From the NCBI GenBank assembly GCA_003134035.1, contig PLAE01000023.1:1-49908 (forward strand): a DNA stretch of 49,908 nt, written 5' to 3'. Below the pieces are notes generated by a model. That model worked only from the letters and a program-made list of their open reading frames with translations. It was not told where the DNA came from and ran no database searches. Source of the DNA: Candidatus Velthaea versatilis (GTDB taxonomy: Bacteria; Vulcanimicrobiota; Vulcanimicrobiia; Vulcanimicrobiales; Vulcanimicrobiaceae). A program made the position numbers and the translations under genes. The stretch's first letter is position 1. Each line of letters starts with the position of its first letter. Of this stretch, positions 1 to 49,836 are shown piece after piece.

Positions 1-1311
1 GGTTCGGACCTCGCCGCCGTGCACGCCAAGGCCGTCCCCGACGGCGATCACTACAAGATCACGGGACAGAAGATCTTCATCACGTTCGGCGATCACGACT
101 TGGCGCCCAACATCATTCATCTCGTGCTGGCCCGGCTGCCGGACGCGCCCGAGGGCGTCAAGGGCATCTCGCTCTTCATCGTTCCCAAGCGGCTGGTCAA
201 TGCCGACGGCAGCTTGGGTGCGGCCAACGACGTCTACACGGCGGGCATCGAACACAAGCTGGGCATCAACGGTAACCCGACCTGCACGCTGAATTACGGT
301 GAAAAAGGCGGCGCGATCGGGTACCTCGTGGGCGAAGCGAACCGCGGACTCGCCTACATGTTCGTCATGATGAACTCCGCGCGTTTCAGCATGAGTCTGC
401 AAGCCCTGGGGATCGCCGATCGCGCCTACCAGAGTGCGCTCGAATATGCCGCCGAGCGGCTGCAGTCACGCGAAGTCGGCGGCAAATCCAAGGCCGCGGC
501 GCCGATCATCAAGCACGCCGACGTGCGGCGCATGCTCATGTCGATGAAGTCGCAAATCGAAGCCATGCGCGCGATCTCATACGTCGCGGCGGCGGCATTC
601 GATCTCGCCAAGCGGCATCCCGACGAGGCCGTGCGCGCGGAGCACAAGGCGTTCATCGAAGTGATGATTCCGGTCCTCAAGAGCTGGTGCGCGGAGACCG
701 CGACCGAGCTGTGTTCGACCGCCGTGCAAATCTTCGGCGGGGCGGGCTACATCGAAGAAACCGGCATCGCACAACAGTATCGCGACATTAAGATCGTCGG
801 CATCTACGAGGGCACGACCGGCATTCAGGCCGTCGACCTCGTCGGGCGCAAATTAGTGCGCGAAGGCGGCGCCGCGCTCACGCTGGTCCTCACGCAGATG
901 CGGCAAACCGCCGCAACCCTCGACTCCTCCAACGCCGAGCTAAGCGTGATAAAAGAGCAGCTCACCAAAAGCATCGAGCTGCTCGACGAAGCGACGCGCT
1001 ACGTCGGACAGAGCGGCGCGACCGATCTCAATATGGCGCTAGCGTGCAGCGTTCCGTACGCCAAGCTGTGGGGCGTCGTCGCCGGCGGCTGGCAGATGGC
1101 CCGCGCCGCGGCGATCAGCGCGGCGAAAATCGCGGCCGGCGACGCCGATCCGTTCTATGCCGCCAAGATTGCCACAGCGCGCTTTTACGCCGACCACGTG
1201 CTGAGCCAGGCGTTTTGGCTCCAGCACGAGATCGTCAACGGTTCGGCGTCGGTCTTCGCGCTGTCCGAAGAGCAGTTTAAGCTCGACCGTCAACTGCTGG
1301 TGGTGGCGTAA
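1..1311 (+). CDS. acyl-CoA dehydrogenase, DmdC-like (5' truncated by window edge)
   Basis: The frame is open from base 1 (GSDLAAVHAK...), so this is the C-terminal ~436 residues of a longer protein; the N-terminal alpha-helical domain lies outside the window. The sequence has the middle beta-domain stretch GQKIFITFGDHDL, the FAD-domain stretch VQIFGGAGYIEETGIAQQYRDIKI ending in IYEGTTGIQA, and a long C-terminal extension. That layout is typical of the ~600-residue acyl-CoA dehydrogenases with an acetyl-CoA dehydrogenase-like C-terminal domain (the DmdC-type, 3-methylmercaptopropionyl-CoA dehydrogenase-like group). These flavoenzymes form the 2,3-enoyl-CoA and hand electrons to ETF, whose genes and quinone oxidoreductase are also in this window. 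The stop is 1 bp before the next start, so it is probably translated in one operon with the bifunctional beta-oxidation enzyme. The substrate cannot be read from the sequence. Confidence 0.93.
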   Translation, partial: GSDLAAVHAKAVPDGDHYKITGQKIFITFGDHDLAPNIIHLVLARLPDAPEGVKGISLFIVPKRLVNADGSLGAANDVYTAGIEHKLGINGNPTCTLNYGEKGGAIGYLVGEANRGLAYMFVMMNSARFSMSLQALGIADRAYQSALEYAAERLQSREVGGKSKAAAPIIKHADVRRMLMSMKSQIEAMRAISYVAAAAFDLAKRHPDEAVRAEHKAFIEVMIPVLKSWCAETATELCSTAVQIFGGAGYIEETGIAQQYRDIKIVGIYEGTTGIQAVDLVGRKLVREGGAALTLVLTQMRQTAATLDSSNAELSVIKEQLTKSIELLDEATRYVGQSGATDLNMALACSVPYAKLWGVVAGGWQMARAAAISAAKIAAGDADPFYAAKIATARFYADHVLSQAFWLQHEIVNGSASVFALSEEQFKLDRQLLVVA

Positions 1312-31728: not shown

Positions 31729-34467
31729 CTAAAAGCGAGCCGTTGCGAGGTGGGAGCTCTTGGTGTCGCGAGGACCGACAAACGCCAGATCGATGGCCTG
31801 CGCATCTTTGAGCTGCGCACCGTCTTCGAGCAGCCGTTCGAGACGCTCCCTACCCAGGGCGCCGCTCAGCGCGGCGATCGTGCGATGGAACTCGAGCTGT
31901 TCGGTGAGCTCGCGGGTAACCTCGATCGCCCCCAACTTTTTCTCGACGTAGCCGGCGAGCCGCGCCGATGCTTCCCGAGCAGCGATCCCCCGCTCGCGGT
32001 TCGCCGTGGGCGCAAGTGCGAGCACCGCCGAGCAATGCTGCAACAGCACGGTGACCCAGAATTGCGACTGGTGCACGAGCGCAGCGCGCAGAGCTTCGTG
32101 AGCGCAAGTAAGGGCTTCGTCAAAGCGATCCAGAGCGATCAAGAATGCGGCTAAGTTGCTCTGAATCCAAACCTTGGCGTCGCTTTTGAGCTCGTCGGCG
32201 GCGGCCAGCGCGGCCTGCGCGTGCCGCACCGCGATTTCGGCGTCGCCGCCGTGAAACTCGGCCTCGGCCAGCGTTCCGGCCGTGATCGCAACTTGAGCTT
32301 CGTCTCGGTCGAGCTCGAATTGATGGAGTGCGCGCGCAAACAATTCGCGCGCGCCGACAAGATCGCCGCAGGCCGAACGGGCCGAGCCCAGATCGAGCAA
32401 CAGCGGGCCGACTTGCCCCAAACCGAGCGTGGTATAGGTTTCGAGCGCGCTGCGCACGAGCGGTTCACCTTCGGCAACCTCGCCGAGCAGGATCAGCGAT
32501 CGGCCCGCAAAGCGTTTGGCGTTCGCGATCCCGCGCCCGTCGCCGACCGCCTCGAAACGCTCGAGCGCGCGACGCGCGGCGGCGAGTGCGGCGTTGAATT
32601 GGTTGAGCCTCGAGGCCATGATGGCGTCGGCTAATTCGAGCCGGGCGACGACGAGCGACGGCGTTTCGGCGGTCACGTGTTCGAGCGCGGTCCCAACCCA
32701 ACGCCGCGCTTCCGCCGGATGCGACGCGTCGAAGATTCGCCGGAGTGACGCGGCGAGGCGCAGCCCGAGTTCGACGTCGCCGGACGCGCCGAGCGCCCAG
32801 GTCAAAGCCGTGCGTATATTTTCGACTTCGCGTGCGGCCCGGACCCGAGCACGATAGCCCGTCGTGGCGTAATCGTCGTCGAGCCGTTCGGCAAGCTCGG
32901 CATAGGCGGCGGCATGACGTCGGGCGATCACGTCCCGCGAGCCGCTCCCGTCGAGCCGCTCGCGACCATACTGGCGCATCGATTCAAGCAGCCGATAACG
33001 GGTGTCTTCTTCGGCTGCGTCGGCGATAACCAGCGACTTATCGACCAGCGACGTGAGCCCGTCGAGCACCTCGAAATCTTCGATCTCGTCGCCGACACAT
33101 ACCGCCAGCGCCGATTCCAACAGAAAGCTGCCGCTGAACACCGAGAGCGCATCGAAGAGCGCACGTTCGCGCTCATCGAGCAGGTCGTAGCTCCAATCGA
33201 TGAGCGCCCGCATCGTCTGCTGCCGCGGCAGTGCGTTGCGTGCTCCTCCGGTGAGGATGCGAAACCGCTCGTCGAGCTTCTGCTCGAGTTGACGCGGTGC
33301 AAGGACCCGGATGCGCGCGGCCGCGAGTTCGAGCGCGAGCGGGATGCCGTCGAGCCGCCGGCAGATCTCGGCGACGCTGGCGACATTTTGCGGAGTCAGC
33401 GCGAAGCGCGAATCGGCCGCCCGCGCACGCGCGACGAAGAGCGCGATCGCGCCGTACTGCAGGGCGTCCTCGACCGTGAGGCCGGCGCTGCGCTCGGGCG
33501 CCGCGAGCATCGGCAGATGGTAGACATGCTCGCCGCTTATTTTGAGCGGTTCGCGGCTGGTCGTCAGAAACGACACGCCCGGGCACGCCGGCAGCAGAGC
33601 GCTCACGAGTTGCGCGCACGCATCGATGACGTGCTCGCAATTGTCGAGCAAGATGAGCACCTTCTTGGCGCGCAGATGGGCGGCCAACATTTCGATGCCG
33701 GGACGCTTCGCCGATTCGACCAGCTGGAAAACCGCGGCTGTCTCGGCGGCCACCAGACGCGGATCGGTCAACGCCGCGAGACCGACGAACCACACCCCGT
33801 CGGCAAAATTCGGGAGCAGTCCGGCGCCGGTTTTGAGCGCGCAGCTAGTCTTCCCGACGCCTCCGACGCCGACGAGCGTGACGAGCCGCTCGTGCGCCAA
33901 CAACTCCGCAATCTGCGCAATGTCGGCGTCGCGGCCGATCAGTTTCACGTCCGCGGGCAGATTGTGTTGGACCAGGCCCGCGTCGAGCAAATCCGGCGAT
34001 TCGATTCGCACCGGCTCGCGATGGTCGCGGCGGACGGCGCGGCAGACCGTCTCGGCAAAAAGCTGCGGATTGTCCTGCACGGGAACGAGATCCCAGTACG
34101 CTAGTCCAGCCAACAGGCCGCGCGGCTCGCAATCGACGATCCGCAGCAAAATCAACCGTCCCTTGCGGTTGAGCGGATCGTTGGCGATCGCATTCATCCA
34201 CTCGGCCTGACAGTGATCGCTGCGCAGATAATCCGGTGAAAGCAGCGCGACGACGCGCGCGCCGCTCGCAAGCGCCTCGTGCATGCGCTCCAAGAAATGC
34301 CGGTTAGCGAAGTCCCATTGCTGCAAAATAACGCCGTAGCCGGCGGATTGCAGGACACGCCCGACCTCGGCCGCGACAGCGGCATCGGCGCCGGCCCGGC
34401 TGATAAAAAGCGCCTGCGATTCCGGCTCCGCGGTAACGGACTGCGCCCGATCTGCTGCGGCGTCCAT
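31729..34467 (-). CDS. TIR / NB-ARC (STAND NTPase) / TPR protein, NLR-like
   Basis: 912 residues; GAGG lies 7 nt before the ATG. Residues ~18-145: TIR domain (LFISRAGADAAVAAEVG, VVALLSPDYLRSDHCQAEW) with the NADase-type glutamate in place (Glu89). Residues ~175-500: NB-ARC ATPase with Walker A GVGGVGKT (200-207), Walker B LILLDNCE (271-278), LTTSRE and GIPLALE, then a winged-helix MRALIDWSYDLLDERERALF. Residues ~560-900: TPR-like helical repeats. The ATPase and TPR parts resemble the predicted ATPases usually tied to transcription-factor domains; here TIR sits in that place. This is the layout of bacterial NLR-like immune proteins that sense phage and deplete NAD. No phage-sensing specificity can be read. 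Confidence 0.87.
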   Translation of the reverse strand: MDAAADRAQSVTAEPESQALFISRAGADAAVAAEVGRVLQSAGYGVILQQWDFANRHFLERMHEALASGARVVALLSPDYLRSDHCQAEWMNAIANDPLNRKGRLILLRIVDCEPRGLLAGLAYWDLVPVQDNPQLFAETVCRAVRRDHREPVRIESPDLLDAGLVQHNLPADVKLIGRDADIAQIAELLAHERLVTLVGVGGVGKTSCALKTGAGLLPNFADGVWFVGLAALTDPRLVAAETAAVFQLVESAKRPGIEMLAAHLRAKKVLILLDNCEHVIDACAQLVSALLPACPGVSFLTTSREPLKISGEHVYHLPMLAAPERSAGLTVEDALQYGAIALFVARARAADSRFALTPQNVASVAEICRRLDGIPLALELAAARIRVLAPRQLEQKLDERFRILTGGARNALPRQQTMRALIDWSYDLLDERERALFDALSVFSGSFLLESALAVCVGDEIEDFEVLDGLTSLVDKSLVIADAAEEDTRYRLLESMRQYGRERLDGSGSRDVIARRHAAAYAELAERLDDDYATTGYRARVRAAREVENIRTALTWALGASGDVELGLRLAASLRRIFDASHPAEARRWVGTALEHVTAETPSLVVARLELADAIMASRLNQFNAALAAARRALERFEAVGDGRGIANAKRFAGRSLILLGEVAEGEPLVRSALETYTTLGLGQVGPLLLDLGSARSACGDLVGARELFARALHQFELDRDEAQVAITAGTLAEAEFHGGDAEIAVRHAQAALAAADELKSDAKVWIQSNLAAFLIALDRFDEALTCAHEALRAALVHQSQFWVTVLLQHCSAVLALAPTANRERGIAAREASARLAGYVEKKLGAIEVTRELTEQLEFHRTIAALSGALGRERLERLLEDGAQLKDAQAIDLAFVGPRDTKSSHLATARF

Positions 34468-43157: not shown

Positions 43158-43187
43158 TTGACAGCGCGGAACTCGGCGTGCTAAAGT
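43158..43187 (+). promoter_or_regulatory. promoter of Cys-leader unit 1
   Basis: Perfect -35 TTGACA (43158-43163), 18-nt spacer, TAAAGT (43182-43187) as -10. Predicted start near 43194, 0-4 nt before the leader ORF ATG at 43198. It lies just after the chemoreceptor stop. Confidence 0.6.
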
Positions 43188-43197
43188 TCGCTCTGAG

Positions 43198-43278
43198 ATG
43201 AATCCCGGTCGTTCGCTTTGTCTTGGCTGTCGGTGCCGCTGCTTCCATGAGGATGTGGTGAGGCTGTCGCTGGGCTGA
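43198..43278 (+). CDS. Cys-rich leader peptide 1 (26 codons)
   Basis: ATG to TGA, 26 residues. Starts MNPGRSL, then the cysteine cluster CLGCRCRC (Cys at 8, 11, 13, 15), and ends HEDVVRLSLG. No ribosome-binding site; the ATG sits at or within a few bases of the predicted transcription start, as in leaderless ORFs. An intrinsic terminator begins 28 nt after the stop and a desaturase gene begins after that. This is the layout of a ribosome-mediated attenuator that would sense charged tRNA-Cys. Confidence 0.65.
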   Translation: MNPGRSLCLGCRCRCFHEDVVRLSLG

Positions 43279-43306
43279 CGCAAACGCATTGCGCTGTTAC
43301 CCGAGC

Positions 43307-43332
43307 AACCGCCGTCTGGGCGGTTTTTTTTT
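43307..43332 (+). terminator. intrinsic terminator of Cys-leader unit 1
   Basis: AACCGCC / GGCGGTT stem (43307-43313 with 43319-43325), 5-nt loop, followed by a run of nine T (43324-43332). It is the strongest intrinsic terminator in the window and lies 31 bp before the GTG of the desaturase gene. It also ends transcription from the chemoreceptor gene. Confidence 0.85.
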
Positions 43333-43363
43333 GTGTTTATTTGTTTATTTGAAAGCGAGACGC

Positions 43364-44341
43364 GTGGGAGCGATTGCACGGAGGCTGTACGGAAATGTGC
43401 GTTCGCGCTGGGAGCGCTACGAAGGTCCGACGTGGATCGTCGCGTTGATCGTGTACGGATGGTGGGCGGCCCTAGTTTGGTTCCATGCGTGTATTCCGTG
43501 GTGGCTCATAATTCCGTTGGGCGCCATTGCGATCGCGTGGCACAATTCGCTGCAACACGAAACGATTCACGCACTCGTTCGCGTACCGCAGCCGGTGCGC
43601 TTCACGGTCGCTTTTCCACCGCTGGGTTTATTCGTACCCTACCCGATCTATTGCCGGAGCCATCGCGAGCATCATCGCGACTCGCGCTTGACCAGTCCGG
43701 TTGACGATCCCGAGAGTTACTATCATCGCGAGGACGACTGGCAGCGTTATTCGCGCGCCGTCCGGGGCGCCTATCTCTTCAATCAAACGCTGATCGGGCG
43801 TTTGACGATCGGCCCGCTGATCAGCCTCAATGGATTCTTCAGACGCGAGCTACGCCGTTTCGCCGCCGGAGACCGCTCAAACCTATCGACGTGGGGGTGG
43901 CATATCGTTTGCGTCGGCGCGGTCTTGTTTTGGGTTGGCGCGATCGCACGCATGCCGTTGTGGCAATACGTCTTCTGCGTCGTCTATCCCGGACTCAGCC
44001 TGGGGATGCTGCGGTCTTTTAGCGAACACCGCTACGCCGCGCGCCCCCAACACCGCACGGCGCTCGTCGAAAGCCGCTTTCCGTTCAATCTGCTCTTTCT
44101 CAATAATAGTCTGCACCTCATCCATCATCTGCGGCCCGCGCTGCCCTGGTATCGTATTCCGGGCGTTTGGCGCGAATCGCGCACCAAACTCTTGGACTAC
44201 AACGGCAGATTTTATTTTGCGGGCTATGGTGCCATCGCCGCACGGCACGCATTCCGCCCGTCTTTCGTTCCGGCGCAGCCTCACGCTGAAGCCGCGGGAT
44301 CCAGCGCGCGCATCAACGTTCGGCCGGCACGTGCGACATGA
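43364..44341 (+). CDS. membrane fatty-acid desaturase family protein
   Basis: 325 residues from GTG 43364; the longer open frame from 43289 would run through the terminator and is rejected. Three histidine boxes of the family: H60NSLQHETIH69, H100REHH104 and LHLIHH near 250. Hydrophobic helices flank them (WIVALIVYGWWAALVWF, PWWLIIPLGAIAIAW, HIVCVGAVLFWVGAIA). Di-iron enzymes of this family desaturate or hydroxylate lipids in the membrane; substrate unknown. The stop overlaps the next gene's start by 4 nt (ATGA), so the two are coupled. It sits downstream of a predicted cysteine attenuator, which is unexpected for a lipid enzyme. Confidence 0.88.
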   Translation: MGAIARRLYGNVRSRWERYEGPTWIVALIVYGWWAALVWFHACIPWWLIIPLGAIAIAWHNSLQHETIHALVRVPQPVRFTVAFPPLGLFVPYPIYCRSHREHHRDSRLTSPVDDPESYYHREDDWQRYSRAVRGAYLFNQTLIGRLTIGPLISLNGFFRRELRRFAAGDRSNLSTWGWHIVCVGAVLFWVGAIARMPLWQYVFCVVYPGLSLGMLRSFSEHRYAARPQHRTALVESRFPFNLLFLNNSLHLIHHLRPALPWYRIPGVWRESRTKLLDYNGRFYFAGYGAIAARHAFRPSFVPAQPHAEAAGSSARINVRPARAT

Positions 44342-45084
44342 GTTTTCCAATGTACGACCTGCCTGAACTCGAGGATGCGAACGACGCACTTGTGACAGCG
44401 TTTGAAATGCTCGCGCTCGAAGCGGGCGTCGATCCGCCGATCGCTCCGGTGACGCAGATTTGCGGTTATCCGCTGCAGACCGTCGACCGGGGCAAATATA
44501 CGCTGCTCGGCATTCCCTGCTACCGCCTTACCGGATGCGACGGCCCGGCACACCGTTCGTTCATCGTCGTTTCGCGGTCGTCGCGGGCGAAGACGATACG
44601 CGACTTGCGCGGCGGCAGCTTCGCGCTCAACAGCCTGGACTCGAACACCGGCATGAACCTGCCGCGCCGCAGCTTCGCGGCAATCGCCCAGCGCAAGCCG
44701 TTCTTCAACAACGTGATCGTGACCGGCAGTCATCGTTCGAGTATGCGAGCCGTCGTGCAAGGTCAGGCGGATGCGGCCGCCATCGACTGCGTCACTTTCG
44801 GCCTTCACGCCGATTACAATCCCGCCGCAATTGCCGGGCTGCGCATCTTGGCGCACACGAGCGCGAGTCCCGGCATTCCGTTCGTCACCGCGCGCACGAC
44901 GAGCCGGCGCACCGTCGGATCGCTGCGCCGGGCGCTGCAGACCTTCTCCACACACGCCGGCTTCGTGCCGCTGCGCAAAGCACTGCGCATCGAGCGCATC
45001 GCACCGCCCTCCGAAACGGCATACGATGTTGTCCTGCACTACGCGGCCGAAGCAGCCGCGCTGGGTTACCCCGAGCTGACCTGA
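44338..45084 (+). CDS. PhnD/SsuA-like substrate-binding protein without signal peptide
   Basis: 248 residues. Periplasmic-binding-protein fold of the PhnD/SsuA type: SFIVVSRSSRAKTIRDLRGGSFALNSLDSNTGMNLPRRSF, then VTGSHRSSMRAVVQGQADAAAIDCVTFGL and a C-terminal ASPGIPFVTAR. Relatives bind phosphonates, phosphite or sulfonates for ABC transporters. There is no signal peptide or lipobox, and no permease or ATPase gene beside it. Coupled to the desaturase gene by ATGA. Its place under a Cys-type leader would fit an organosulfur ligand; that is inference. Confidence 0.78.
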   Translation: MSFPMYDLPELEDANDALVTAFEMLALEAGVDPPIAPVTQICGYPLQTVDRGKYTLLGIPCYRLTGCDGPAHRSFIVVSRSSRAKTIRDLRGGSFALNSLDSNTGMNLPRRSFAAIAQRKPFFNNVIVTGSHRSSMRAVVQGQADAAAIDCVTFGLHADYNPAAIAGLRILAHTSASPGIPFVTARTTSRRTVGSLRRALQTFSTHAGFVPLRKALRIERIAPPSETAYDVVLHYAAEAAALGYPELT

Positions 45085-45499: not shown

Positions 45500-45761
45500 G
45501 GCCGAAAAAACCGGCGTGATCTCGTTCGTCCTGGCGGGGATCGATCCGGTCGAAGTTGGAACGGCGCTCAACGAAGAGGGGATCGCCGTGCGCGCCGGAC
45601 ACCACTGCGCACAACCGATCCTGCGCCGCTTCGGTCTCGAGCAAACGGTACGGCTCTCGCTCGCGCTTTATCACACGGCCGGCGAAGTCGATGCATTCGC
45701 AGCGGCCGTGCGCCGAATCCAGTCCAAGCGGACGCCGCCGACGCCCGCGCGGTTGGCTTGA
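45498..45761 (+). pseudogene. SufS-type cysteine desulfurase, C-terminal remnant
   Basis: 87 codons in a frame different from the encapsulin remnant: AAEKTGVISFVLAGIDPVEVG, NEEGIAVRAGHHCAQPILRRFG, TVRLSLALYHTAGEVDAF. The loop cysteine that takes the persulfide is present (HHC), but the PLP-binding N-terminal three quarters is missing, so it cannot be active. Class II (SufS/CsdA-like) enzymes of this sort are the cargo of family 2A encapsulins. It ends 20 bp from the stop of the convergent serine acetyltransferase gene. Confidence 0.8.
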
Positions 45762-45781: not shown

Positions 45782-46687
45782 TTATATCGAAAACTCCGAG
45801 TGCTCGTACGATAGGAGCTTGAGGATTTTGTCGAGCCCCTGCCCCTGCGTACTTTTTCCCGACGACTTGACGATTTTGGCGGGGATACCAGCGACCGTCG
45901 AGTGCGGCGGCACCGATTGGAGCACGAGCGCGCCGGCGGCGATGCGGGCAAACGATCCGATCTCGATATTACCGAGGATCTTGGCACCCGCGCCGATCAT
46001 CGCGCCGCGCCGGATTTTCGGATGCCGGTCACGCGATTCTTTGCCGGTTCCACCCAACGTCACGTCTTGCAGCAGCGAGACCGCATCTTCGATGACGGCG
46101 GTCTCGCCGACGACCAGCCCCGTCGCGTGGTCGAGAAAGATGCCCTTGCCGAACTTCGCCGCCGGATGGATATCGGTTTGAAAGACATCCGAGGAACGGC
46201 TCTGGAGATAGAGTGCGAAATCCCGCTCGACATGATTCCATAGCCAGTGCGCCACCCGATGCGTTTGAACCGCGTGGAAGCCCTTGAAGTAGAGGACCGG
46301 CTCGATGAGCCGCTCGCACGCCGGATCGCGCTCGAGCACGGCTGCGATGTCGGCACGCATGGCCTTGCCGATCGAGGGCGCCGCGCGAAAGGCGCGCTCG
46401 AACGTTTCGACCAGAACGTCGATGCCCACTGCGCTGTGCGCCAGCCGCACGGCAATCCGATAAATGATCGCCGCCTCGAACGTCGGTTGCGCGAGGATCG
46501 AGTCGACGAACAGTGCAGCGAGCATCGGTGCGCGCCGGTAGGCGTCCTCCGCTTCGGTCCGCAGACGCAACCAAAGCTCGTCGCCCGCCGCTTCCTGCGC
46601 ATGCTGCGCAGCGGTCTCCTCGGGGACGGTCGAACCGGCATCGGGGGCTATCGAAACGACGTGGGTTTTGACGGATTGCAGAGGCAC
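45782..46687 (-). CDS. cysE: serine O-acetyltransferase (EpsC/CysE type)
   Basis: 301 residues, GTG start. The N-terminal half is helical (LRTEAEDAYRRAPMLAALFVDSI); the C-terminal half is a left-handed beta-helix of hexapeptide repeats with the family's key stretch DIHPAAKFGKGIFLDHATGLVVGETAVI, VTLGGTGK and DRHPKIRRGAMIGAGAKILG. It makes O-acetylserine, the carbon acceptor for sulfide in cysteine synthesis. The EpsC form is the one found in family 2A encapsulin loci. Upstream on the same strand are a promoter, a Cys-rich leader ORF and an intrinsic terminator, so expression is probably attenuated by cysteine supply. Confidence 0.93.
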   Translation of the reverse strand: MPLQSVKTHVVSIAPDAGSTVPEETAAQHAQEAAGDELWLRLRTEAEDAYRRAPMLAALFVDSILAQPTFEAAIIYRIAVRLAHSAVGIDVLVETFERAFRAAPSIGKAMRADIAAVLERDPACERLIEPVLYFKGFHAVQTHRVAHWLWNHVERDFALYLQSRSSDVFQTDIHPAAKFGKGIFLDHATGLVVGETAVIEDAVSLLQDVTLGGTGKESRDRHPKIRRGAMIGAGAKILGNIEIGSFARIAAGALVLQSVPPHSTVAGIPAKIVKSSGKSTQGQGLDKILKLLSYEHSEFSI

Positions 46688-46721: not shown

Positions 46722-46758
46722 TAAAAATAAAAAGCCCCTCGGCAAACAGCGAGGGGCT
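46722..46758 (-). terminator. intrinsic terminator of Cys-leader unit 2
   Basis: On the minus strand AGCCCCTCG (complement of 46758-46750) pairs with CGAGGGGCT (46741-46733), 8-nt loop, followed by TTTATTTTT. It lies 41 nt after the leader ORF stop and about 45 nt before the cysE GTG, where an attenuator would be. Confidence 0.8.
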
Positions 46759-46799
46759 CGTACCATGACGCACCGATCGGTCACATCGTCGCTGGCAAG

Positions 46800-46877
46800 C
46801 TACCGCCGTTTAACGGGCACACGGAAAAACAAACAACGACAACGGCGACAACCCACGACGGACCAGCTGCGGTGCAT
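46800..46877 (-). CDS. Cys-rich leader peptide 2 (25 codons)
   Basis: ATG at 46877, TAG at 46800. Begins MHRSWSVVG, then the cluster CRRCRC (Cys at 10, 13, 15), ends LFFRVPVKRR. No ribosome-binding site: the -10 hexamer ends 6 nt before the ATG, so the A of the ATG is the predicted first transcribed base, i.e. a leaderless mRNA. It precedes an intrinsic terminator and cysE. Stalling at the Cys codons when tRNA-Cys is uncharged would be expected to prevent terminator formation. Confidence 0.7.
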   Translation of the reverse strand: MHRSWSVVGCRRCRCLFFRVPVKRR

Positions 46878-46883
46878 TGTAAA

Positions 46884-46912
46884 TATATACCAGCGCCGCA
46901 AGGCGCTGTCAA
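46884..46912 (-). promoter_or_regulatory. promoter of Cys-leader unit 2 / cysE
   Basis: Perfect -35 TTGACA (46912-46907), ideal 17-nt spacer, TATATA (46889-46884) as -10. The predicted start falls on the leader ORF ATG at 46877. It is the best promoter match in the window. Confidence 0.75.
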
Positions 46913-46948
46913 ACCGGAGTTGCGTGCTTAGCCGGCGACGGCTGAGCC

Positions 46949-47293
46949 CGCGGTTCGGCGCGCGAAGTAAGCGATGCCTTCAGCAATTGGCGCGTCGCAA
47001 TCGACGGAGTTCGGCCGAAAACGAGCGCACTTTGGCAAGAGTTCACGCTCGCCTACCAGCGCCGCTTCGTCCGTCACGTCCAGCCGTATTGGAACGTTCA
47101 CCGGCACCGGATGGCGCCCCAGGTCGCCGAGCAGCTGGCCGGACTTGTCGCGGCGGGCTCACTGCGAATGCTGGCCGGCCGGCCGCAGCACTTTACGGCC
47201 GCGCCGGACGCGGTGCGGGTCTCGATTCGTTCGCGCGGCAGCGACGAGCGGATCGAGATCGACGCGGGGCGCGTCCTCAATTGCAGCGGACCG
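46949..47293 (+). pseudogene. YdhS-like FAD/NAD(P)-binding protein, internal fragment
   Basis: One frame reads SNWRVAIDGVRPKTSALWQEF, RRFVRHVQPYWNVHRHRMAP, QVAEQLAGLVAAGSLRMLAG and ends with a dinucleotide-fold segment RVLNCSGPE. This is the middle part of the FAD/NAD(P)-binding family that includes YdhS (about 450-600 residues). The N-terminal FAD site and the C-terminus are absent; downstream the text stops making sense. The frame stays open to 48046, but past 47300 the translation is Arg/Ser-rich noise. Confidence 0.5.
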
Positions 47294-47439
47294 GAACACC
47301 AAACGGATCCTGCGGGAAGCGCCCGATGCGGGAAGATCCGCGACCGATTTTACGCGCAGCGCCTTATAGCGGAGGACTCGGTTCGAGACGAGCGTGCGGA
47401 ACCGCCGTGCATGTCCGGGTGCAAATGTGGTGCGGGGCA

Positions 47440-47469
47440 TTGCACCAGCGGTACAAGCCGTGTTAAGGT
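47440..47469 (+). promoter_or_regulatory. possible promoter of Cys-leader unit 3
   Basis: TAAGGT (47464-47469) fits the TAnnnT -10 pattern and ends 6 nt before the leader ATG, the same distance as in unit 2. A weak TTGCAC lies 18 nt upstream. The -35 match is poor, so support comes mainly from the shared geometry. Confidence 0.4.
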
Positions 47470-47475
47470 TTCGGC

Positions 47476-47538
47476 ATGTTACGTGAACGCGAACTTTGCT
47501 GTCGTGAGTTCTGTTGTCCGCCGGAGGATCGCGGCTAG
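47476..47538 (+). CDS. Cys-rich leader peptide 3 (20 codons)
   Basis: ATG to TAG, 20 residues: MLRERELCCREFCCPPEDRG, with two Cys-Cys pairs at 8-9 and 13-14. No ribosome-binding site; the ATG is at the predicted transcription start. A 6-bp hairpin and then an intrinsic terminator follow, the terminator starting 41 nt after the stop exactly as in unit 2. The next recognisable gene downstream is a SulP sulfate permease, 430 nt beyond the terminator. Confidence 0.68.
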   Translation: MLRERELCCREFCCPPEDRG

Positions 47539-47551
47539 GGCTTGCGTGGAA

Positions 47552-47566
47552 CGACGGCCGCCGTCG
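47552..47566 (+). promoter_or_regulatory. hairpin between leader ORF 3 and its terminator
   Basis: CGACGG / CCGTCG with a 3-nt loop, placed between the leader stop and the terminator. It could be part of the alternative (anti-terminator) fold. Confidence 0.4.
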
Positions 47567-47579
47567 CGCTCCGTGTCGG

Positions 47580-47613
47580 GACCCTCGCCGTTGGTGAGGG
47601 TCTTTTTTCTTTT
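47580..47613 (+). terminator. intrinsic terminator of Cys-leader unit 3
   Basis: GACCCTCGCC pairs with GGTGAGGGTC (47580-47589 with 47593-47602, one G-U pair), 3-nt loop, followed by TTTTTTCTTTT. A textbook intrinsic terminator with no complete gene upstream to terminate except the leader ORF. Confidence 0.85.
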
Positions 47614-48042: not shown

Positions 48043-49836
48043 GTGAGCGCGGTGTTTCGCCGGCCATTTGCGTATAGCCTAACGGCTTTTCGCAGCGACC
48101 TCATTGCCGGTGCGACGGTCGCCGCGATCGCGGTTCCCCAAGCGATCGCGTACGCGTTGATCGCCGGCGTCGATCCGCGCTACGGCCTCTACTCCGCCAT
48201 CATCGTAACCATCGTTGCATCGCTGCTCGGGTCGTCGTCGCATTTGATCAACGGACCCACGAACGCGATTTCGCTCGTCGTCTTTAGCGCCCTCGCACCG
48301 TTTACGGGCCAGGTAGACGGGTACCAAGCGCTGTTTTTGTTGGGCATCATCGCCGGCTCGATGCAGATCGTCATCGCGGCATTGCGGCTCGGCGACTTGA
48401 CGCGCTACGTTTCCGAATCGGTGATCCTCGGCTTCATGGCCGGGGCCGGCTTGCTCATCGCGATCGGCCAAATCGGTAATTTCATCGGCGCCGCCAAAAA
48501 GGGTTCGGGCGATCAATCCGTTCTCGTGAACACGTGGCTCACGCTCAGCCAAGGCGTCTTCAACCTGCGCGCGGTTGGGCTGGGCGTCGGCACGATCATT
48601 GTGGTCCTGGCACTGCACCGCGTCATCACCAAGTACAAGCTGCCGCGCGTCGACATGCTTGCGGGCTTGATTCTCGCCTCGCTCGTCGCCGCGTATTTCG
48701 GTTGGTCGCTGCCGTCTCCCACCGGGAAAACGATCGTTTCCGTCGTTGGCGCCATTCCCGCGGCGCTTCCATCGTTTCATCTTCCGGTGATCAACGTCGC
48801 TTGGGCTTTGCGACTCATCAACGGTAGTTTGGCGATTGCTCTGCTCGGATTGCTCGAAGCGCTCGCGGTCGCTAAATCAATTTCGACCTATACTCGGCAA
48901 CCGCTGAACTACAACCGCCAGTGCCTCGCCGAAGGCGTCGGCAATGTTGTCGGCGGCTTTTTTGAGGCGCTGCCGGGCTCGGGATCGTTGACGCGCTCGG
49001 CGATCAACTTCCAAGCCGGCGCAGTAACGCGAGCGTCGGGTGTGTATTCCGGTATCATCGTCGGCCTCGTCGTTCTCGCCCTTGGTCCGTATGCCCGGTT
49101 CATTCCGAAGTCCGTCCTGGCCGGTTTGCTCTTCATCACGGCAGCCCGCTTAATCGATTGGAAGCGCCTCAACTATGCGATTCGGGCTTCACGTTTCGAT
49201 GCCGCGCTCGTCGCGGTCACGGCGTTCACGGCGATCTTCATCGACGTCGAAGACTCGATTCTCGCGGGCGTCGCTCTCTCGATCATCCTGTTCTTGCTGC
49301 GTGCGTCGAAACCCGGCCTGCGCGAGCTCATCGTCGGCCCCGAACGTGTCGTTCGCGAGCGGCGAAGCGGCGAGCTGCGTCAAGCGGGACTTCTGATCTA
49401 CGATCTGGAGGGCGAGCTCTTCTTCGGCGCAGCGCCGCAATTCGAACGCCTTCTGCACGACATCGATGCCGAGACCGATCGGGACGGCGCCACCTATCTC
49501 GTGCTTCGCTTGAAACGGACCTGGAATCCCGACATGGTCGTCGTCGAACATCTCGAGCAGTTTCTGCGCGCGGCCGAAACGCGCGGGTTGACCGTTCTGC
49601 TCGCCGGTATTCGACCCGATCTGATGCGCATATTCGGCAACATTGGGCTCACGACATGGTTTCCGTCCGAGCGCATCTTCCCCGAAGAGGACGAGGCCTT
49701 TTCGGCGACGCTGCGTGCCGTGCGCCATGCCGGCGAGTTGGCGAACCGGCACCAAACGGCGGCGGCAGATCAGCCCGCCGCTACGCCCGAGTCGGTTCGT
49801 TGGGACGAGATGAACGCGGCGTATTATCTGGTCTAG
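48043..49836 (+). CDS. SulP family sulfate permease with STAS domain
   Basis: 597 residues, GTG start with GGAG 10 nt upstream. N-terminal ~420 residues: about 12-14 hydrophobic segments with family motifs AGATVAAIAVPQAIAYALIAGVDPRYGLYSAI, SHLINGPTNAISLVVF, ISTYTRQPLNYNRQCLAEGVGNVVGGFFEALPGSGSLTRSAINFQAGA. C-terminal ~440-570: STAS domain (LRQAGLLIYDLEGELFFGAAPQFERLL, TYLVLRLKRTWNPDMVVVEHLEQFL). SulP proteins carry sulfate, bicarbonate or other anions; lying downstream of a Cys-type leader and beside cysE, sulfate is the best guess. Confidence 0.93.
   Translation: MSAVFRRPFAYSLTAFRSDLIAGATVAAIAVPQAIAYALIAGVDPRYGLYSAIIVTIVASLLGSSSHLINGPTNAISLVVFSALAPFTGQVDGYQALFLLGIIAGSMQIVIAALRLGDLTRYVSESVILGFMAGAGLLIAIGQIGNFIGAAKKGSGDQSVLVNTWLTLSQGVFNLRAVGLGVGTIIVVLALHRVITKYKLPRVDMLAGLILASLVAAYFGWSLPSPTGKTIVSVVGAIPAALPSFHLPVINVAWALRLINGSLAIALLGLLEALAVAKSISTYTRQPLNYNRQCLAEGVGNVVGGFFEALPGSGSLTRSAINFQAGAVTRASGVYSGIIVGLVVLALGPYARFIPKSVLAGLLFITAARLIDWKRLNYAIRASRFDAALVAVTAFTAIFIDVEDSILAGVALSIILFLLRASKPGLRELIVGPERVVRERRSGELRQAGLLIYDLEGELFFGAAPQFERLLHDIDAETDRDGATYLVLRLKRTWNPDMVVVEHLEQFLRAAETRGLTVLLAGIRPDLMRIFGNIGLTTWFPSERIFPEEDEAFSATLRAVRHAGELANRHQTAAADQPAATPESVRWDEMNAAYYLV

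Follow-up and report, generated by a model that had tools for sequence, protein, structure and literature searches.

The window analysed here, a 49,908 nt stretch of contig PLAE01000023.1 from Candidatus Velthaea versatilis, carries a promoter, the short leader ORF MHRSWSVVGCRRCRCLFFRVPVKRR, a strong intrinsic terminator and cysE, in this order and all on the minus strand (Table 1). The first-pass annotation had proposed a 25-codon ORF with three Cys codons in six, a terminator between this ORF and the cysE GTG, and a serine acetyltransferase as the controlled enzyme, and all three features were recovered: the ORF was read at 46877-46800, with Cys at codons 10, 13 and 15 (46850-46848, 46841-46839 and 46835-46833; CRRCRC), an independent terminator scan returned 46758-46723, and the target was identified as cysE by both PF06426 and TIGR01172. 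Approximately 40 bases separate the leader stop codon from the terminator and another 40 or so separate the terminator from the cysE GTG, upstream of which there is only a weak Shine-Dalgarno-like GGGG. Comparison of the leader peptides with NCBIfam gave zero matches.

Convergent to cysE lies a cysteine-desulfurase-like C-terminal fragment of a class V aminotransferase (45516-45758, plus strand; PF00266 positions 311-371), and the remainder of this gene was not found in the same frame. On the other side of the unit, no gene was recognised in the segment between two divergent Cys units (46913-47439); one frame there resembles the end of a FAD/NAD-binding protein by eye, with no match in Pfam. 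Elsewhere in the window, a 912-aa protein with TIR, nSTAND-like and TPR domains (31729-34467, minus strand) is a possible anti-phage defence protein.

Table 1. Features of the cysE unit and its sister units in the window, and loci of related epsC-type leaders
Feature	Position	Strand	Details
Promoter of cysE unit, TTGACA-17 nt-TATATA	46884-46912	-	Direct sequence reading; most relatives' leaders arranged alike
Leader ORF of cysE unit	46800-46877	-	MHRSWSVVGCRRCRCLFFRVPVKRR, then stop; 25 sense codons
Region 1, CGCCGUU	46841-46847	-	Inside Cys codons; pairs with region 2 (folding)
Region 2, AAACGGCG	46804-46811	-	Last leader codons, at stop; pairs with region 1 or 3 (folding)
Region 3, CGCUGUUU	46744-46751	-	Covers the last part of the terminator 5' arm and the loop; pairs with region 2 as antiterminator (folding)
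Intrinsic terminator	46723-46758	-	AGCCCCTCG-CTGTTTGC-CGAGGGGCT-TTTTATTTTT; 9-bp GC-rich stem, 8-nt loop, long T-run
cysE, serine O-acetyltransferase	45782-46687	-	301 aa, GTG start; PF06426 6e-34, TIGR01172 above cut-off
Sister unit 1, TTGACA-18-TAAAGT-10-ATG	43158-43335	+	Leader MNPGRSLCLGCRCRCFHEDVVRLSLG, then stop, 43198-43278; terminator 43307-43325 plus T-run
Genes after unit 1	43364-45084	+	Fatty-acid-desaturase family protein 43364-44341 (PF00487); PhnD-like binding protein 44338-45084 (PF12974)
Sister unit 3, TTGCAC-18-TAAGGT-6-ATG	47440-47610	+	Leader MLRERELCCREFCCPPEDRG, then stop, 47476-47538; terminator 47578-47604 plus T-run
SulP-family permease with STAS domain, after unit 3	48043-49836	+	PF00916 6e-83
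epsC-type Cys-run leaders (outside the window)	L087, L088, L097, L100, L106-L109, L111, L134, L136; L085, L090, L092		First group one family, second group another

Promoter architecture and the 5' end of the leader transcript

The promoter TTGACA-17 nt-TATATA had been put forward as the best in the window. Its elements are present, with the -35 hexamer at 46912-46907, a spacer of 17 nt and the -10 hexamer at 46889-46884, but its top rank found no support in the consensus scan, which overlooks this promoter because TATATA matches at only 4 of 6 positions and lacks the final T. An alternative -10 element, TATATT at a spacing of 19 nt, has a higher score (11/12) but lies just 4 nt from the ATG, and the -10 assignment of the cysE unit is ambiguous between the two hexamers. 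Six nucleotides (TTTACA) separate TATATA from the leader ATG at 46877, and choosing this hexamer matches the 6-8 nt gap in most relatives' leaders, which makes it likely that the transcript starts on the A of the ATG or only a few bases away from it. A perfect 7-bp palindrome (CAGCGCC-TTGC-GGCGCTG, 46891-46908) fills the promoter spacer, possibly as an operator and possibly by chance.

The same layout was examined in a catalogue of 23 accepted leaders, for which the acceptance criteria were fixed while looking. In most of these the gap between a -10-like hexamer and the ATG is 6-8 bases (9-10 bases in a few others), and a TTGACN-like hexamer stands 17-19 bases ahead of the -10. A -10 element so placed would put the first transcribed base on the A of the ATG or next to it and leave no room for a Shine-Dalgarno site, and leaderless initiation is thereby supported as the probable mode in most units. 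With transcription of the cysE unit starting at or beside the A, its leader would therefore probably be translated as a leaderless mRNA. An arsR-like gene of the same genome (G000:C206; L213, about 1136-1173, plus strand) with the arrangement TTGACA-18-TAGTAT-6-ATG was considered and rejected as a leader; its promoter layout suggests that leaderless genes occur outside Cys units as well.

Folding of the leader RNA and the proposed switch

The leader RNA was folded with a ribosome footprint modelled as the A-site codon plus 12 nt, with E. coli trpL (sequence from the MG1655 record) as a positive control. Three segments of the cysE leader (regions 1-3, Table 1) take part in mutually exclusive pairings: with no ribosome, region 1 pairs with region 2 and leaves the terminator free; a ribosome stalled at the Cys codons allows region 2 to pair with region 3 ahead of synthesis of the terminator 3' arm; and a ribosome at the stop codon covers region 2, leaving the terminator free again. 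The computed sequestration of the terminator 5' arm was 0.76 in the stalled state versus 0.13 at the stop codon, a difference that no dinucleotide shuffle of the spacer matched in 200 trials. The trpL control behaved like the cysE leader in the same test (0.39 versus 0.15), and the two share the 1:2, 2:3 and 3:4 pairing logic, with Trp codons in trpL where the cysE leader has Cys codons; trpL also has an untranslated leader and a Shine-Dalgarno site. The complete RNA favours the terminator in every state and in all cases, including the trpL control, and the choice would therefore have to be kinetic, made during transcription.

The switch that we propose would work as follows. When Cys-tRNA is ample, the ribosome would reach the stop codon and cover region 2, the terminator would form and RNA polymerase would halt before cysE. 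Under Cys-tRNA shortage, it would instead stall at Cys codons 10-15 and leave region 2 free to pair with region 3 before the terminator 3' arm exists, and polymerase would read into cysE. Since O-acetylserine, the product of CysE, is the direct precursor of cysteine, the regulatory loop would close, with cysE most likely switched on when cysteine is short. Clustered Cys codons, a terminator before the gene, a position-dependent antiterminator in the computed folds and a gene that makes the sensed amino acid are all found together at this locus, and the cysE element is very probably a ribosome-mediated transcription attenuator sensing Cys-tRNA(Cys). Attenuation by a Cys leader and terminator, as the first-pass annotation had read the locus, is thus supported by the stall-dependent antiterminator seen in folding alongside the trpL control, and by the related Cys leaders described below.

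Across 20 related leaders the switching effect gave a combined P of 6e-8, with most leaders not significant individually and two changing in the opposite direction. Switching was weak or reversed in the leaders of several relatives, among them that of the metY-like gene of Vulcanimicrobium alpinus (0.15 stalled versus 0.37 at stop). This weak dependence on the ribosome in some leaders, like the palindrome in the promoter spacer (46908-46891), would fit a different sensor acting on the same terminator, either a riboswitch or a protein with its binding site in the leader or the palindrome. Against such a sensor, Rfam covariance models gave zero matches in the window at the gathering threshold, and the leaders are variable in RNA sequence, with the Cys clusters as their one recurring feature. 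We consider this the least probable of the explanations weighed here. The leader peptides have little in common apart from Cys, which would be expected if the codons, and not the peptide, matter.

Cys leaders in the genome and the family

At least seven Cys leaders were found in this genome, before cysE, sulP, cysH, sulfite reductase, a sulfonate-type binding protein, a desaturase operon and tRNA-Cys, a set that is a lower bound. The genome, assembled from a metagenome and 90% complete, belongs to the Vulcanimicrobium family of the Eremiobacterota. In addition to the units in the window, contig C19 carries Cys leaders before cysH and, divergently, sulfite reductase, contig C222 carries one before a NMT1/SsuA-like binding protein, and contig C103 has a Cys leader and terminator immediately before a tRNA-Cys(GCA) gene (L210:2482-2700, plus strand). 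Units at tRNA-Cys are present in two genomes of different genera (L210, and L216 from G019), with the leaders MLPRPLACRCCPCWPLLVSRTN and MKHVGVCCCACCISPALPCRLGATSA; at the other tRNA-Cys loci examined, no Cys leader was found beyond those two genomes. Other genera have Cys leaders before cysH, sulfite reductase, sulfonate-type binding proteins and a permease, and also before a CysA-like ATPase of the sulfate ABC type, a FAD enzyme, a molybdopterin oxidoreductase and a peroxiredoxin. The only leader found in V. alpinus WC8-2 (G008), the first cultivated representative of the Vulcanimicrobium family in the Eremiobacterota (PMC9758169), was MNRRSLAMMMCCCSPRGTV (L278:4710-4769, minus strand; G008:C1, about 2,681,740), which is followed by a GC hairpin with a poor T-run and by the gene for a metY-like PLP enzyme of Cys/Met metabolism. 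Given the poor T-run, this unit may work in another way.

The window holds 247 ATG ORFs of 15-45 codons, seven of them Cys-rich. A strict terminator within 130 nt downstream follows only three of the 247, each of them Cys-rich (post hoc hypergeometric P = 1.4e-5), namely the cysE leader and the leaders of the two sister units. Over 518 kb of loci that were not selected for Cys, a promoter and terminator filter reduced 3288 short ORFs to eight, six of them with clustered Cys. On the window test and this filtering, a chance short ORF was rejected as an account of the leader. Cys was fivefold enriched among the filtered short ORFs of the same 518 kb, which were picked as sulfur or tRNA-Cys loci, so that the enrichment tests Cys among the amino acids and not the link to sulfur. 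The pattern TGYCGNTGYCGNTGY occurred in the genome at control level and was uninformative.

The recurrence of Cys clusters also bears on whether the promoter and terminator simply delimit a separate small RNA of about 150 nt, with cysE transcribed from its own promoter and the Cys codons either incidental or coding for a small protein. The promoter-to-terminator span alone would yield a discrete short RNA, but the clusters occupy the same position ahead of sulfur genes across many genera, in peptides that are otherwise dissimilar, and the consensus scan listed no promoter between the terminator and cysE; we regard a separate small RNA as highly improbable. On a wider reading, to which we give even odds, leaderless Cys-codon transcription attenuators would form a regulon that governs much of the cysteine and sulfur economy throughout this bacterial family and that in some genera includes a tRNA-Cys gene. 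Were this true, the level of charged tRNA-Cys would control the synthesis of tRNA-Cys itself, an unusual self-sensing loop.

Relation to known attenuators and origin of cysE

Leaderless polycysteine uORFs are known from mycobacteria (Canestrari 2020, cited in PMC13236596, PMC9031893 and PMC9094748; earlier Seliverstov 2005, PMC1262725, and Shell 2015, PMC4633059). They resemble the units described here in being apparently leaderless short ORFs with clustered Cys codons before cysteine and sulfur genes, with a presumed cysteine-dependent ribosome speed; however, the mycobacterial units lack an intrinsic terminator and their mode of action is given as translation attenuation, whereas the cysE unit, in a different phylum, has a strong terminator and a matching antiterminator. 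The -10 to ATG distance of the cysE unit, as read from the sequence, is compatible with a mycobacterial-type transcript start at the uORF start codon, but its strong terminator sets it apart from control of downstream translation without a terminator.

The uORFC-8-2 motif, found before cysS in Rhodobacterales and proposed to act by ribosome-mediated transcription attenuation, likewise combines a Cys-codon uORF with two hairpins and a terminal U-run (PMC8632094). The available part of that source describes two Cys codons, cysS only and a single alphaproteobacterial order, in contrast to the multi-gene set found here in another phylum, and it describes no leaderless promoter; the present unit is distinct from that motif by gene (cysE) and by host (Eremiobacterota). 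Leaderless leader peptides before amino-acid genes (ilvL, the leuA leader and metL) are also known from Streptomyces lividans, with promoters of the form -10 TAnnnT and -35 nTGACn, but these concern other amino acids in Actinobacteria, and the leuA leader is reported to lack a typical terminator (PMC8079986). We found no report in the open-licence literature of Cys-leader attenuation in Eremiobacterota, or of a leader peptide that governs a tRNA gene. Elements of this kind are already known, from mycobacteria and from cysS of Rhodobacterales; what is new is the way the parts are combined, the scale and the phylum. Reports of cysteine-specific attenuation are few, consisting of mycobacterial translation attenuation and one predicted cysS motif. 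Added here is a leader that is apparently leaderless and is followed by an intrinsic terminator, at loci for sulfur uptake, sulfate reduction, cysteine synthesis and tRNA-Cys in one Eremiobacterota family. Regulation in this barely studied phylum becomes testable from sequence.

Comparison of the leaders of cysE/epsC orthologs, which had been suggested as a check on the locus, was carried out. Besides the units at sulfur and tRNA-Cys loci of the same family described above, it revealed Cys leaders upstream of cysE genes of epsC type in further families of this class. Two such families have Cys-run leaders ending, for example, in ...SCRCCC or ...CCCCCCGCCCCC before the stop codon, often with a GC hairpin right after it. 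In one of these families, 7 of 11 genomes show a 7-8 base complement between the leader sequence GTCCTGC and the Shine-Dalgarno region of cysE. These epsC-type leaders probably act by translation attenuation, in the mycobacterial mode, and the phylum may therefore use both transcription and translation attenuation. The latter mode, known for leaderless polycysteine uORFs (PMC9031893, PMC13236596) and matched by the complements in this other family, might be extended to the window, where a stall at Cys would free the cysE ribosome-binding site and the terminator-like hairpin would be secondary. Such a reading is unlikely in view of the 9-bp GC-rich stem, long T-run and matching antiterminator of the cysE unit, in which a comparable complement to the cysE Shine-Dalgarno was not seen, and of the two such units that precede a tRNA gene, which is untranslated.

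The CysE encoded in the window is of an alphaproteobacterial type, with best matches of 68% identity in Acetobacteraceae and Rhodospirillales, and most members of its own family carry a shorter enzyme of another, EpsC-like type. By the criteria used, no convincing Cys leader was found upstream of EpsC in the Vulcanimicrobium family, including this genome's second serine acetyltransferase. A Cys leader was found upstream of none of the 80 nearest CysE homologues examined, nearly all of them proteobacterial, which leaves arrival of the leader together with cysE unsupported; the gene seems instead to have been captured by a resident module, that is, probably acquired and then put under a local attenuator. 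The terminators of the cysE and sulP units have in common the core CCCTCGCYGTT...GAGGG (46732-46759 and 47578-47604), which is absent elsewhere in the genome and points to a duplication between these two divergent units.
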